Source: Enterovibrio calviensis DSM 14347 (GTDB lineage: Bacteria > Pseudomonadota > Gammaproteobacteria > Enterobacterales > Vibrionaceae). From it: 64,000 nt of DNA. How positions within the stretch are numbered: the stretch's first letter is position 1; the number at the start of each line of letters is the position of its first letter. The stretch is from positions 124,001-188,000 of the forward strand of contig NZ_JHZA01000007.1 of the NCBI RefSeq assembly GCF_000621165.1, read 5' to 3'. Below are positions 25,690-37,615 of this stretch, piece after piece. The notes under the pieces were generated by a model. The model worked only from the letters and a program-made list of their open reading frames with translations, ran no database searches and was not told where the DNA came from. The translations under genes were made by a program, and so were the position numbers.

Positions 25690-26844
25690 ATGAAGACTCA
25701 TGCAATTCGTTTACTACCGCTAAGTTTTGCGGTGATGTGTGTAAACGCCACCGCGGCTGTCACCTTGTACGAAGACGATACTCATTCTGTCAGCACAGAT
25801 TTGTTGGTGAATGTTTTTTATACCAATTCAAGCATTGATCGATTGTCGGATTTTGACGATGCCAACAGCGATAGGGTAAGTCGAGACCAATCGCGTGTTC
25901 GCGTTGGCTTACTACCGAACTACATTGGGTTTAACTACAACACTGAAACTGATGACGGCTTGAAGATAGGCGCTCGTTCTTCGTTCTGGGTTACATTAAA
26001 TGATACTGACATCAATCGTGGCGCAGAAGGCTTGGGTACTCGCTCTGGTATCGATGCTCGCCAATTCTATGCAACGGTTGATGCCAATTGGGGACAGGTT
26101 TTGCTGGGCAAAGATTTTGGTTTGTTTTCACGCAGTAATATTCTGACGGATGAACTGTTATTGGGCCACGGCCAAACCAGCGATTTCTATGGTTTGATTG
26201 ATGGCGGTAACGTGTCGTTCGGTAATATTGGGTCGGGTTATACCTATCCATTTCCGAAGGCACAAATCACTTATCGTAGTCCCGACCTGTCGGGCGTTCA
26301 GATTGCTGTCGGTGTGATGGATCCGAACAAGAAAAGTGCAACCAGCTCTGAAGATAATCCGCGTTTTGAAAGTGAAATCACGTACAACAATACGTTTGAT
26401 GAGGTGGATTTTAAAGCCTATATCAATGGCGTCACTCAAAGCTCCAAAGATAGCACCGGTAAAACCGACTCTAACGGCTTAGGTGGTGGTATTCGTTTAG
26501 GTTTTGCAGGCGCTGCGTTCAATGCTTCTGGTTTTAGTACGGAAGGACTAGGCGATGTGGCGGGATTAGATACCATAATTTCAAATGAGCAAACCGAATC
26601 AAAAGGTTACTTGTTGCAAGGTTCATATTCGTTTGATTCCGAGCGTATTGTGTTGTCCTATGGCCGAACCGATGTTGAAACCCGAGGAACGACTAGCCTT
26701 GAATACGATAATTACGCTGTCGCTTGGTTTCACACGGTGAATATGAACTTGAATTTAGTGGGAGAATACAATCGTACAGAAGTGAATGAAGGACGTACGG
26801 AAGAAAATAATACCTTCGCGATTGGTGCCGTTGTGACGTTTTAA
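25690..26844 (+). CDS. OmpU/OmpT-type outer membrane porin
   Basis: 384 residues. Signal peptide MKTHAIRLLPLSFAVMCVNATAA, then alternating beta-strand sequence of a 16-stranded general porin (VGLLPNYIGFNYNTETDDGLKIGARSSF, DARQFYATVDANWGQVLLGKDFGLF) and a C-terminal phenylalanine (AIGAVVTF) as required for BamA-mediated insertion. The DGLKIGAR and GQVLLGKDFG segments resemble Vibrio OmpU/OmpT-like porins, but it is rather divergent. Forms water-filled trimers for small solutes. Ribosome binding site AGGGAG precedes the ATG. The 3' region carries a small-RNA-like element. Confidence 0.88.
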   Translation: MKTHAIRLLPLSFAVMCVNATAAVTLYEDDTHSVSTDLLVNVFYTNSSIDRLSDFDDANSDRVSRDQSRVRVGLLPNYIGFNYNTETDDGLKIGARSSFWVTLNDTDINRGAEGLGTRSGIDARQFYATVDANWGQVLLGKDFGLFSRSNILTDELLLGHGQTSDFYGLIDGGNVSFGNIGSGYTYPFPKAQITYRSPDLSGVQIAVGVMDPNKKSATSSEDNPRFESEITYNNTFDEVDFKAYINGVTQSSKDSTGKTDSNGLGGGIRLGFAGAAFNASGFSTEGLGDVAGLDTIISNEQTESKGYLLQGSYSFDSERIVLSYGRTDVETRGTTSLEYDNYAVAWFHTVNMNLNLVGEYNRTEVNEGRTEENNTFAIGAVVTF

Positions 26845-26920
26845 TTCATTGTACTCAGTGGCGTACTAGCATCCGTTGCTGAGTGGAATGAATCCTATTT
26901 TTTAGTGCTAATCCAATTGA

Positions 26921-27001
26921 GACACGAATCGTGTAGATGATGTGAGGTAAGTCAGTTTTATGTGTCGCAAGCGCTAGGTCATGCTTGGCGCTTGTTTTTT
27001 T
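26921..27001 (+). ncRNA. Putative small RNA, copy A (3' of the porin gene)
   Basis: A hairpin ACACG-AAT-CGTGT, the block AGATGATGTGAGGT (26935-26948), a variable region, then an intrinsic terminator CAAGCGC (26968-26974) / GCGCTTG (26988-26994) and seven Ts. The same order, with the same 14-base block and an AGCGC-type terminator, occurs at 37539-37615. Length about 80 bases. No clear promoter is seen, so it could be released from the porin mRNA 3' end. Not matched to any named RNA from memory. Confidence 0.5.
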
Positions 27002-36429: not shown

Positions 36430-36473
36430 GTTGATAATATCAACTATATTCCTGTATGGTTGATATTATCAAC
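36430..36473. promoter_or_regulatory. Twin MarR operators
   Basis: GTTGATAATATCAAC (36430-36444) and GTTGATATTATCAAC (36459-36473): perfect 15-bp palindromes, apart from the centre, differing only at the central bases, with centres 29 bases apart. They lie in the 100-base gap between the MarR gene and the DUF2798 gene and should cover both promoters. Confidence 0.85.
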
Positions 36474-36506
36474 TTAATTGAGAGTCACTTCAAGCTAGGA
36501 GAAACC

Positions 36507-37010
36507 ATGAGCGCACAAGATGTGATGTCTCCCTCGCAGCAAGCGATGGAACACCAACAAACCAAGACGCCGCTGTATCAAAAAGTGCTCGTTGTACTTT
36601 GTATGATGACTGTGATGGGCGGCTCGTTAACAAGCGTGATGACATACATCAACCTCGGTTTTACCGAGACCTTTTTTACCGACTGGGGCAGTTCTTTTCT
36701 ACTCGCCGCTATCACGGTCATGCCGGTTGGTTTTTTGTTGATGGTGTTACTAACCAAACTTTCTCATGCGCTCCTTCCAAATACCCGCGAGCTTAAACGC
36801 AATTTGCTGGTGGGGGTGAGCATGGCGCTAATCATGGAGTCGGGCATGGCTTTCACCACTGCGATGAATAATGTTGGGTTTGAAGGAAAGGGTGTGTTTT
36901 TCGACGCATGGTTAGATGGCGTGTTAGCGGCTTTGCCTGTGGCGCTTACCCTGATGCTGATTATCTCAACAACCGTAAAACCCAAGATAGAGCGTTTTAT
37001 GAAGAGCTAG
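36507..37010 (+). CDS. Membrane protein with two DUF2798 domains
   Basis: 167 residues with four hydrophobic segments forming two similar halves: VLVVLCMMTVMGGSLTSVMT with a following helix, then LLVGVSMALIMESGMAFTTA with a following helix. Each half resembles one DUF2798 unit, so this is probably an internal duplication. Function unknown; members often sit next to MarR/TetR genes. ATG at 36507 has AGGAG at good spacing; an earlier frame opening at 36456 would overlap an operator. Confidence 0.8.
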   Translation: MSAQDVMSPSQQAMEHQQTKTPLYQKVLVVLCMMTVMGGSLTSVMTYINLGFTETFFTDWGSSFLLAAITVMPVGFLLMVLLTKLSHALLPNTRELKRNLLVGVSMALIMESGMAFTTAMNNVGFEGKGVFFDAWLDGVLAALPVALTLMLIISTTVKPKIERFMKS

Positions 37011-37061: not shown

Positions 37062-37364
37062 ATGACGACAACAAGAAAAGACAAGCGCTACCGCATCATT
37101 ATTGAAGAAATAGGTTGTGAGCAAGAGGCCGCGAGGAGACTTGAATTTGAACACGTTGATAGGGAAGACATGTTCAACGTCGTTGAAAAACTGAAAGAAG
37201 GAAGTGGCCTGGAAGCATCGGTTGCGACCAAAATGGGCGTGGCATTACGTTTGATGGGGCCAACGATGATGGAACACCGCAAACACCCCTTGCTTGTTGA
37301 CTTTATGCCTCACTTCAAAGCCTTCATGCAGAACCTCAAAAGTACGGTGAAAAGTCAAAGATAA
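37062..37364 (+). CDS. DUF3861 family protein
   Basis: 100 residues, beginning with a charged strand (KRYRIIIEEIGCEQEAARRLEFEHVDREDMFNVVEKLKEG) and ending with HPLLVDFMPHFKAFMQNLKS, as in DUF3861. Small cytoplasmic protein of unknown function. It is 51 bases downstream of the DUF2798 gene, so probably under the same MarR control. Confidence 0.8.
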   Translation: MTTTRKDKRYRIIIEEIGCEQEAARRLEFEHVDREDMFNVVEKLKEGSGLEASVATKMGVALRLMGPTMMEHRKHPLLVDFMPHFKAFMQNLKSTVKSQR

Positions 37365-37538
37365 CCCTAACGGACATCATCTGAAAGAAGGATGCTAAAT
37401 CCACCCAATGCGCCATGTTTCATCCAGTAAAGGACGCATAAAATGGCGTTGTTGGTTGAGTTCAGGTAAAGGGTTAAGGCTTAGACATGCGTAATCACCT
37501 GACTCACGAAACGCTGTGAGATAGAGATCCCTTATTCA

Positions 37539-37615
37539 ACACAATTCGTGCAGATGATGTGAGGTTATTCTGAACTTAGTGTTAAAGCGCCATGCTGATT
37601 TGGCGCTATTTTTTT
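37539..37615 (+). ncRNA. Putative small RNA, copy B
   Basis: ACACAATTCGTGC, AGATGATGTGAGGT (37552-37565), a variable stretch, then terminator AGCGCCA (37586-37592)/TGGCGCT (37601-37607) with eight A/T bases mostly T. Same layout as 26921-27001. It lies in the 316-base spacer between the DUF3861 gene and a converging LysR gene; promoter not clear. The rest of the spacer (37365-37538) shows nothing recognisable. Confidence 0.5.

Follow-up and report, generated by a model that had tools for sequence, protein, structure and literature searches.

Behind a putative porin gene in the window (the whole 64,000-nt stretch of DNA analysed here) stands a short element of about 80 bp that ends in an intrinsic terminator, and an element built in the same order stands 10.6 kb further on. 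The locus thus raises the question of whether the two elements are simply the ends of two mRNAs, are small-RNA genes in their own right, or specify sibling small RNAs (sRNAs), one of which is released from the 3' end of the porin mRNA. The original prediction, made from the letters of the window, favoured sibling sRNAs with a link to the porin. To answer the question we combined exact-match and alignment searches, comparison with related genomes, structural alignment, promoter and processing-site scans, and target searches.

Two homologous copies of one element

The 14-base block AGATGATGTGAGGT occurs exactly twice in the 5.5-Mb genome, and a whole-genome search places both occurrences inside the window, on the + strand (Table 1); two further sites that differ from the block by one base are present in the genome, both without the flanking element. 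In each copy an intrinsic terminator, consisting of a hairpin and a T run, lies 3' of the block, as had been predicted. Local alignment of the intergenic region that contains copy A with the one that contains copy B yields a score of 50, as compared to a best score of 27 in 1000 dinucleotide shuffles, which excludes chance as the source of the resemblance, and the alignment covers the whole element. When the 14-mer is masked, the score is 25, and 14 of 1000 mononucleotide shuffles score as high, indicating that the similarity of A and B extends past the 14-mer but is weaker there. We conclude that copies A and B are homologous, and the earlier description of a two-copy element, with the same 14 bases in the same order, is upheld by both exact search and alignment.

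Table 1. Coordinates of the two copies and of the neighbouring genes, in positions of the window
Feature	Position	Strand	Basis or remark
Putative porin gene, 384 aa, proposed parent mRNA of copy A	25690..26844	+	ORF; Foldseek of model
Spacer, porin stop codon to element	26845..26920	+	RNase E-type RN/WUU motif at 26897-26901, 24 nt before stem
Copy A, whole element	26921..27001	+	from GACAC to last of seven T
Copy A closing stem, 5' arm (GACAC)	26921..26925	+	structural alignment
Copy A conserved loop	26926..26961	+	about 36 nt; species comparison
Copy A shared block AGATGATGTGAGGT, proposed seed	26935..26948	+	exact-match search
Copy A closing stem, 3' arm (GTGTC)	26962..26966	+	structural alignment; abuts terminator
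Copy A intrinsic terminator, 7-T run	26967..27001	+	terminator scan
DUF2798 gene upstream of copy B	36456..37010	+	PF11391
DUF3861 gene directly upstream of copy B	37062..37364	+	PF12977
Copy B, whole element	37538..37615	+	begins with AACAC
Copy B closing stem, 5' arm (AACAC)	37538..37542	+	structural alignment
Copy B shared block AGATGATGTGAGGT	37552..37565	+	exact-match search
Copy B closing stem, 3' arm (GTGTT)	37579..37583	+	structural alignment
Copy B intrinsic terminator, 7-T run	37586..37615	+	terminator scan

The closing stem of copy A begins 76 nt 3' of the porin stop codon, and that of copy B begins 173 nt 3' of the DUF3861 gene, behind a stretch that species comparison finds to be partly conserved. 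The porin label is a low-confidence one: the protein encoded at 25690-26844 matches nothing in Pfam or NCBIfam and no PDB sequence significantly, and the label comes from a Foldseek search with a structure model (pLDDT 44.7), in which porins are the top matches (best E 5.5e-12). A very short reading frame, ATG TGT CGC AAG CGC TAG (26960-26977), follows the GAGG of copy A and runs into the terminator stem; most A elements have ATG TGT or ATG TGC and then a stop within a few codons after GAGG, copy B has no such frame, and the letters of the frame in A elements are largely forced by the stem.

No Rfam 15 family matches either copy at gathering score, and permissive searches with both copies (E <= 5) return only sub-gathering families, RF00079 not being among them. 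Elsewhere in the window, at 717-867 on the - strand, an Rfam search locates an FMN riboswitch (RF00050, 114.9 bits).

Distribution in relatives and the conserved fold

Copies A and B are both present in the window genome, in Enterovibrio norvegicus DSM 15893 and in E. baiacu A649. In E. baiacu and E. norvegicus the two copies lie 3.7 kb apart on one strand, with copy A behind the porin ortholog and copy B behind DUF3861 (for E. norvegicus, judged by eye from aligned DNA). Enterovibrio sp. ZSDZ42 has copy A and a decayed copy B (stretch L080, 9302-9381, +), in which the closing stem is short of one pair and the T run is interrupted; the decayed copy lies about 140 nt behind a different gene, presumably for a membrane permease, to judge from its translation, and looks like a sibling in course of loss.

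The association with the porin gene reaches deeper. Ten of the 18 genomes of the genus, Grimontia celer among them, have a porin ortholog (E <= 1e-40), and an A-type element lies 3' of the porin in all ten, as expected from the porin link originally proposed; in the nine orthologs measured, the distance from porin stop codon to closing stem is 40-76 nt. Six of these A elements belong to deeper lineages (Grimontia celer, E. coralii, Enterovibrio sp. ZSDZ35 and three others), in which stem and terminator are kept and loops differ; Grimontia, E. coralii and ZSDZ35 have loops of largely different sequence. In most of the deeper elements a G(T/A)GAGG-like core is discernible, though not in E. coralii, which reads AGTGAGTGG. 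Behind the porin of Shewanella corallii, which is 73% identical to the window porin, there is no such element.

The sequence that precedes the element also has recurrent features. Deep-branch A elements have an extra hairpin (AACCACGCCTGGTT or AACCACGCCTGTGGTT) after CCCTTA, within about 25 nt before the closing stem; TCCCTTA precedes copy B, which has no such hairpin; and in one single-sequence fold, that of E. norvegicus copy B, CCCTTA pairs with the loop.

Model searches of the family suggest a narrow distribution. Of 197 family genomes sampled, six match model R1 at E <= 0.01, and all six belong to one genus; weaker R1 matches in the genus have E >= 0.0177. Model R2 matches 11 of 197 family genomes, comprising seven in the genus and four weak matches outside it (E 0.0016-0.0066); at E <= 0.01 it misses the A copies of the window genome, E. 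baiacu and E. norvegicus, and it detects copy A of ZSDZ42 (E 3.2e-4), a sequence outside its building set, its other matches in the genus being building sequences or identical to one. A scan for the block with up to one mismatch matches 27 of 296 family genomes, 23 of them beyond the window genome, E. baiacu, E. norvegicus and ZSDZ42, and in one genome (G021) the exact block stands without the element; as part of the element, the block is present in four genomes, with a changed base in one. The expected conservation of the block is found in those four genomes. The spread over Vibrionaceae that had been suggested for the element (NCBI places Enterovibrio in this family) is not borne out by the R1 matches, and the element appears to be genus-restricted.

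The fold that is conserved among these elements differs from the fold first proposed. The 5' hairpin ACACG-AAT-CGTGT of the original prediction was tried as the conserved fold and rejected, inasmuch as the 5-bp hairpin cannot form in all seven close elements: its outer pair is kept in two of the seven and its inner pair in four, leaving a 3-bp CAC/GTG core as its general part. The better-supported helix is one in which RACAC pairs with GTGTY just before the terminator (in copy A, the GACAC and GTGTC arms of Table 1), and this closing stem can form in 7/7 close elements. Single-sequence folding forms the closing stem in both window copies, and minimum-energy folds form it in 4 of 7 longer stretches of relatives; the minimum-energy fold of E. 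norvegicus copy B has a CACG/CGTG hairpin instead, similar to the one first proposed.

Covariation points to the same helix. We aligned 13 elements to R1 (nine of the ten A elements, one identical sequence having been dropped, and four B elements), and in this alignment 98.4% of the cells of closing stem and terminator are paired. Five pairs are changed on both sides, which 4 of 500 shuffles equal, and the covariation score is 0.377 vs. 0.249 in shuffled alignments (reached by 0 of 500) and at most 0.136 in slid versions; these shuffle counts are not probabilities, because related sequences make up the alignment, which was itself fitted to the structure. In number of further pair types the 13 elements fall below every shuffle, and for the seven close elements taken by themselves covariation does not rise above that of shuffles, 63 of 500 of which reach it. 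The covariance that had been put forward as a check is seen as compensatory stem changes across the 13 elements, with the seven close ones at shuffle level. The adjoining terminator anchors the stem, and the variants GACAC/GTGTC, AACAC/GTGTT and AGCAC/GTGCT are apparent on visual inspection.

These results bear on whether the shared block is a DNA site (an operator or a repeat) or a product of chance. In favour of such an origin are the shortness of the block and the palindrome-like ACACGAATCGTGT in copy A; however, the palindrome is not conserved, the order and strand of the block relative to the terminator are fixed, and the changes in the stem are compensatory. Together with the alignment score of the two copies, this makes such an origin of the block very improbable.

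Conservation of the loop and candidate targets

Comparison of the window with E. norvegicus indicates that conservation is not confined to the terminator. The extended block (26927-26948) is 0.95 identical, stem plus loop (26921-26966) 0.87 and the terminator 0.83, as compared to 0.48 for four-fold sites of the porin gene, 0.50 for the spacer and 0.38 for the downstream flank; comparison with E. baiacu yields the same picture. Block and stem plus loop are far above four-fold sites and flanks, and it follows that the loop is protected, not the terminator alone. We conclude that the loop of copy A is conserved above neutral between the more distant species. In closer pairs the contrast fades: between the window and ZSDZ42, four-fold sites are 0.63, the spacer 0.81 and the block 0.82 identical, with block identity at 0.73-0.82 in the three species pairs that include ZSDZ42. 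In close pairs (window/ZSDZ42) spacer and element are conserved to much the same degree, which counts against the reading we favour below, an sRNA released from the porin mRNA. For copy B, stem plus loop is identical at 44/47 to 47/47 positions across three species, figures that are raw identities with no neutral yardstick.

The two copies also resemble each other within each genome. The longest run identical between A and B comprises 25 loop bases in E. norvegicus, 17 in E. baiacu and 14 in the window, and in E. norvegicus the terminators of the two copies differ despite the 25 shared loop bases. The presence of one loop at two loci favours a shared base-pairing role in trans. Within the window clade, sequence is conserved beyond the terminator, a property that the review PMC9438474 names as a sign of a seed; deeper lineages, E. 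coralii excepted, keep of it only the G(T/A)GAGG-like core.

Two target patterns were searched. The first, the complement of the inner 12 bases of the block with at most one mismatch, occurs at 127 places in four genomes, seven of which are the elements themselves. Sixty places were inspected (30 in the window genome, 23 in E. norvegicus, 7 in E. baiacu, none in ZSDZ42): 55 of the 60 block complements lie within or antisense to reading frames, 5 lie outside frames on either strand by the cut-offs applied, and no start-proximal site recurring between species was seen among the 60, orthologs being compared by eye. The second pattern, which includes a start codon downstream, gave at least three start-proximal 8-base matches that recur between species, for 20 stretches among the matches listed. 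Two of these are common to the window genome and ZSDZ42, and the third is the gmk leader, in which TAACCTCACA, located 13-22 nt upstream of the start codon, can pair with TGTGAGGTTA, a stretch of 10 bases in the loop of copy B and of E. norvegicus copy A. The core of this site, ACCTCACA, is present in 10/10 genomes with the element and in 3/8 genomes without it, a distribution that possibly results from relatedness, since most genomes without the site are distant; the site is unchanged in Grimontia although the loop differs there. The gmk leader is to be read as a candidate target, unproven, that leaves the odds of the different readings as they were. A longer stretch of the gmk leader, TTTAACCTCACAGTGAT, which lies 8 to 24 nt upstream of the start codon, is invariant in 13 of the 18 genomes in the genus, namely in all ten that carry the element and in three of the eight that do not.

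Autoregulation of the porin through its own leader was considered and is not supported. In a pairing test with 9 of the 10 orthologs, shuffled loops were as good as the real loop in 185 of 200 cases for the window, in 191 of 200 for ZSDZ42, and in 16-127 of 200 for the other seven.

The main rival reading is that the element is a purely cis-acting 3' end, which would terminate the porin mRNA and guard it from 3' decay or serve as a landing pad for ProQ or Hfq, with no action in trans, copy B being a copied terminator for its own operon. The position of the element directly behind the porin in 10/10 orthologs, the retention of stems while the loop changes between deep lineages, and target searches that established no target are all as this reading would predict. 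Nevertheless, within the window clade the block exceeds the terminator hairpin in conservation in three of the six species pairs and falls short of it in the other three, which is not the behaviour of a free loop, and at two loci 14 to 25 loop bases stay identical, which termination or stability alone would not call for. We therefore consider a purely cis-acting 3' end unlikely, while giving it more weight than any other rival.

Proposed origin of the transcript and relation to known systems

Scans of the regions upstream of the element point to the porin mRNA as the source of copy A. No sigma-70-like promoter was found on the + strand before four A elements (of ten) or before 3/3 intact B loci, in a scan that models sigma-70-like sites only. 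In 7 of 9 A elements an RN/WUU motif starts 5-9 nt before the closing stem (1.8 expected; 0 of 2000 shuffles), a result to be read with the facts that the test window of 3-11 nt before the stem was picked after the positions had been seen and that the nine rows represent some three or four lineages. RN/WUU is the RNase E consensus, and OppZ and CarZ provide precedents in V. cholerae (PMC7398697). No RNase E-type motif is present within about 40 nt upstream of copy B in three species. The absence of sigma-70-like promoters from the loci scanned, the attachment to the porin stop codon and the RNase E-type motifs favour release of copy A from the porin mRNA, so that the 3'-end origin envisaged for copy A in the original prediction stands as the better guess. 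By position only, copy A would qualify as a 3' UTR element, lying after a stop codon and ending in a terminator.

The same evidence weighs on the alternative that A and B are independently transcribed sRNA genes with promoters of their own, as is usual for intergenic siblings. Copy B, 173 nt past DUF3861 and behind a partly conserved stretch that has no RNase E-type motif, would suit a separate gene; set against this, none of the seven regions scanned shows a sigma-70-like promoter on the + strand, and the closing stem of copy A comes only 40-76 nt past the porin stop codon. We regard independent transcription of the two copies as improbable.

According to the reading we favour, the porin mRNA has copy A as its 3' UTR, the end of which is formed by a closing stem of 5 bp, a loop of some 36 nt that includes the conserved block, and an intrinsic terminator with a U tail to which Hfq could bind. 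RNase E would cut upstream of the closing stem; a fragment of about 80-100 nt would persist as an sRNA; and its loop, with AGAUGAUGUGAGGU and the bases on either side, would base-pair with other mRNAs, coupling porin synthesis to their control. Copy B would be a duplicate that ends the DUF2798-DUF3861 operon, bringing that loop under separate transcriptional control, as happens with sibling sRNAs. In keeping with sibling sRNAs, there are two homologous copies per genome in the window genome, E. norvegicus and E. baiacu, with a block that is predicted to be single-stranded. Transcription, processing, Hfq binding and action in trans are all steps that we infer. We put the probability of this reading, in which the 3' UTR of the porin mRNA releases an sRNA and another operon carries its sibling, at roughly 0.6. 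A fuller version, in which the module was copied from the 3' end of the porin mRNA into a second operon, such that two unrelated units feed one base-pairing pool, and in which the Grimontia branch keeps the scaffold with an exchanged seed, is tentative, and we would sooner bet against it than on it.

What would be new is a genus-restricted, sRNA-like 3' UTR element with a sibling copy, the kind itself being already known. In literature searches for small RNAs of Enterovibrio norvegicus or Grimontia, for porins in connection with UTR-derived sRNAs or porin mRNA, and for Vibrio sibling sRNAs, the element is undescribed in the titles and abstracts of the matches listed. If the favoured reading is correct, the element is an RNA family absent from Rfam, from Enterovibrio and Grimontia; the porin mRNA bears its own regulator, and the paralog exhibits a 3' UTR sRNA escaping its parent gene; and comparison of copy A, decayed B and the re-tooled loops allows seed evolution to be watched on a fixed scaffold.

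Known systems resemble the element in different respects. OmrA and OmrB (RF00079) are sibling sRNAs tied to outer-membrane proteins; that pair and the present element both involve two related RNAs per genome, and there is no RF00079 match here. OppZ and CarZ of V. cholerae, as described in PMC7398697, are like copy A in being short Vibrionaceae 3' UTR modules with a conserved stretch before an intrinsic terminator and an RNase E motif, and the parent mRNA of OppZ is one for a transporter. Unlike the element described here, for which pairing with the parent leader is not supported and which exists in two copies, OppZ and CarZ act on their own transcripts (PMC7398697); the likeness is one of description. 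In E. coli the 3' end of a transport-operon mRNA gives rise to MalH, an sRNA that is tied to porin control (PMC8081044), as copy A would be; MalH derives from malG and tunes maltoporin, whereas here the parent gene itself would encode the porin. The duplication of csrB in Vibrio, described in PMC6262261, provides a further instance of two related RNAs in one genome, as here.
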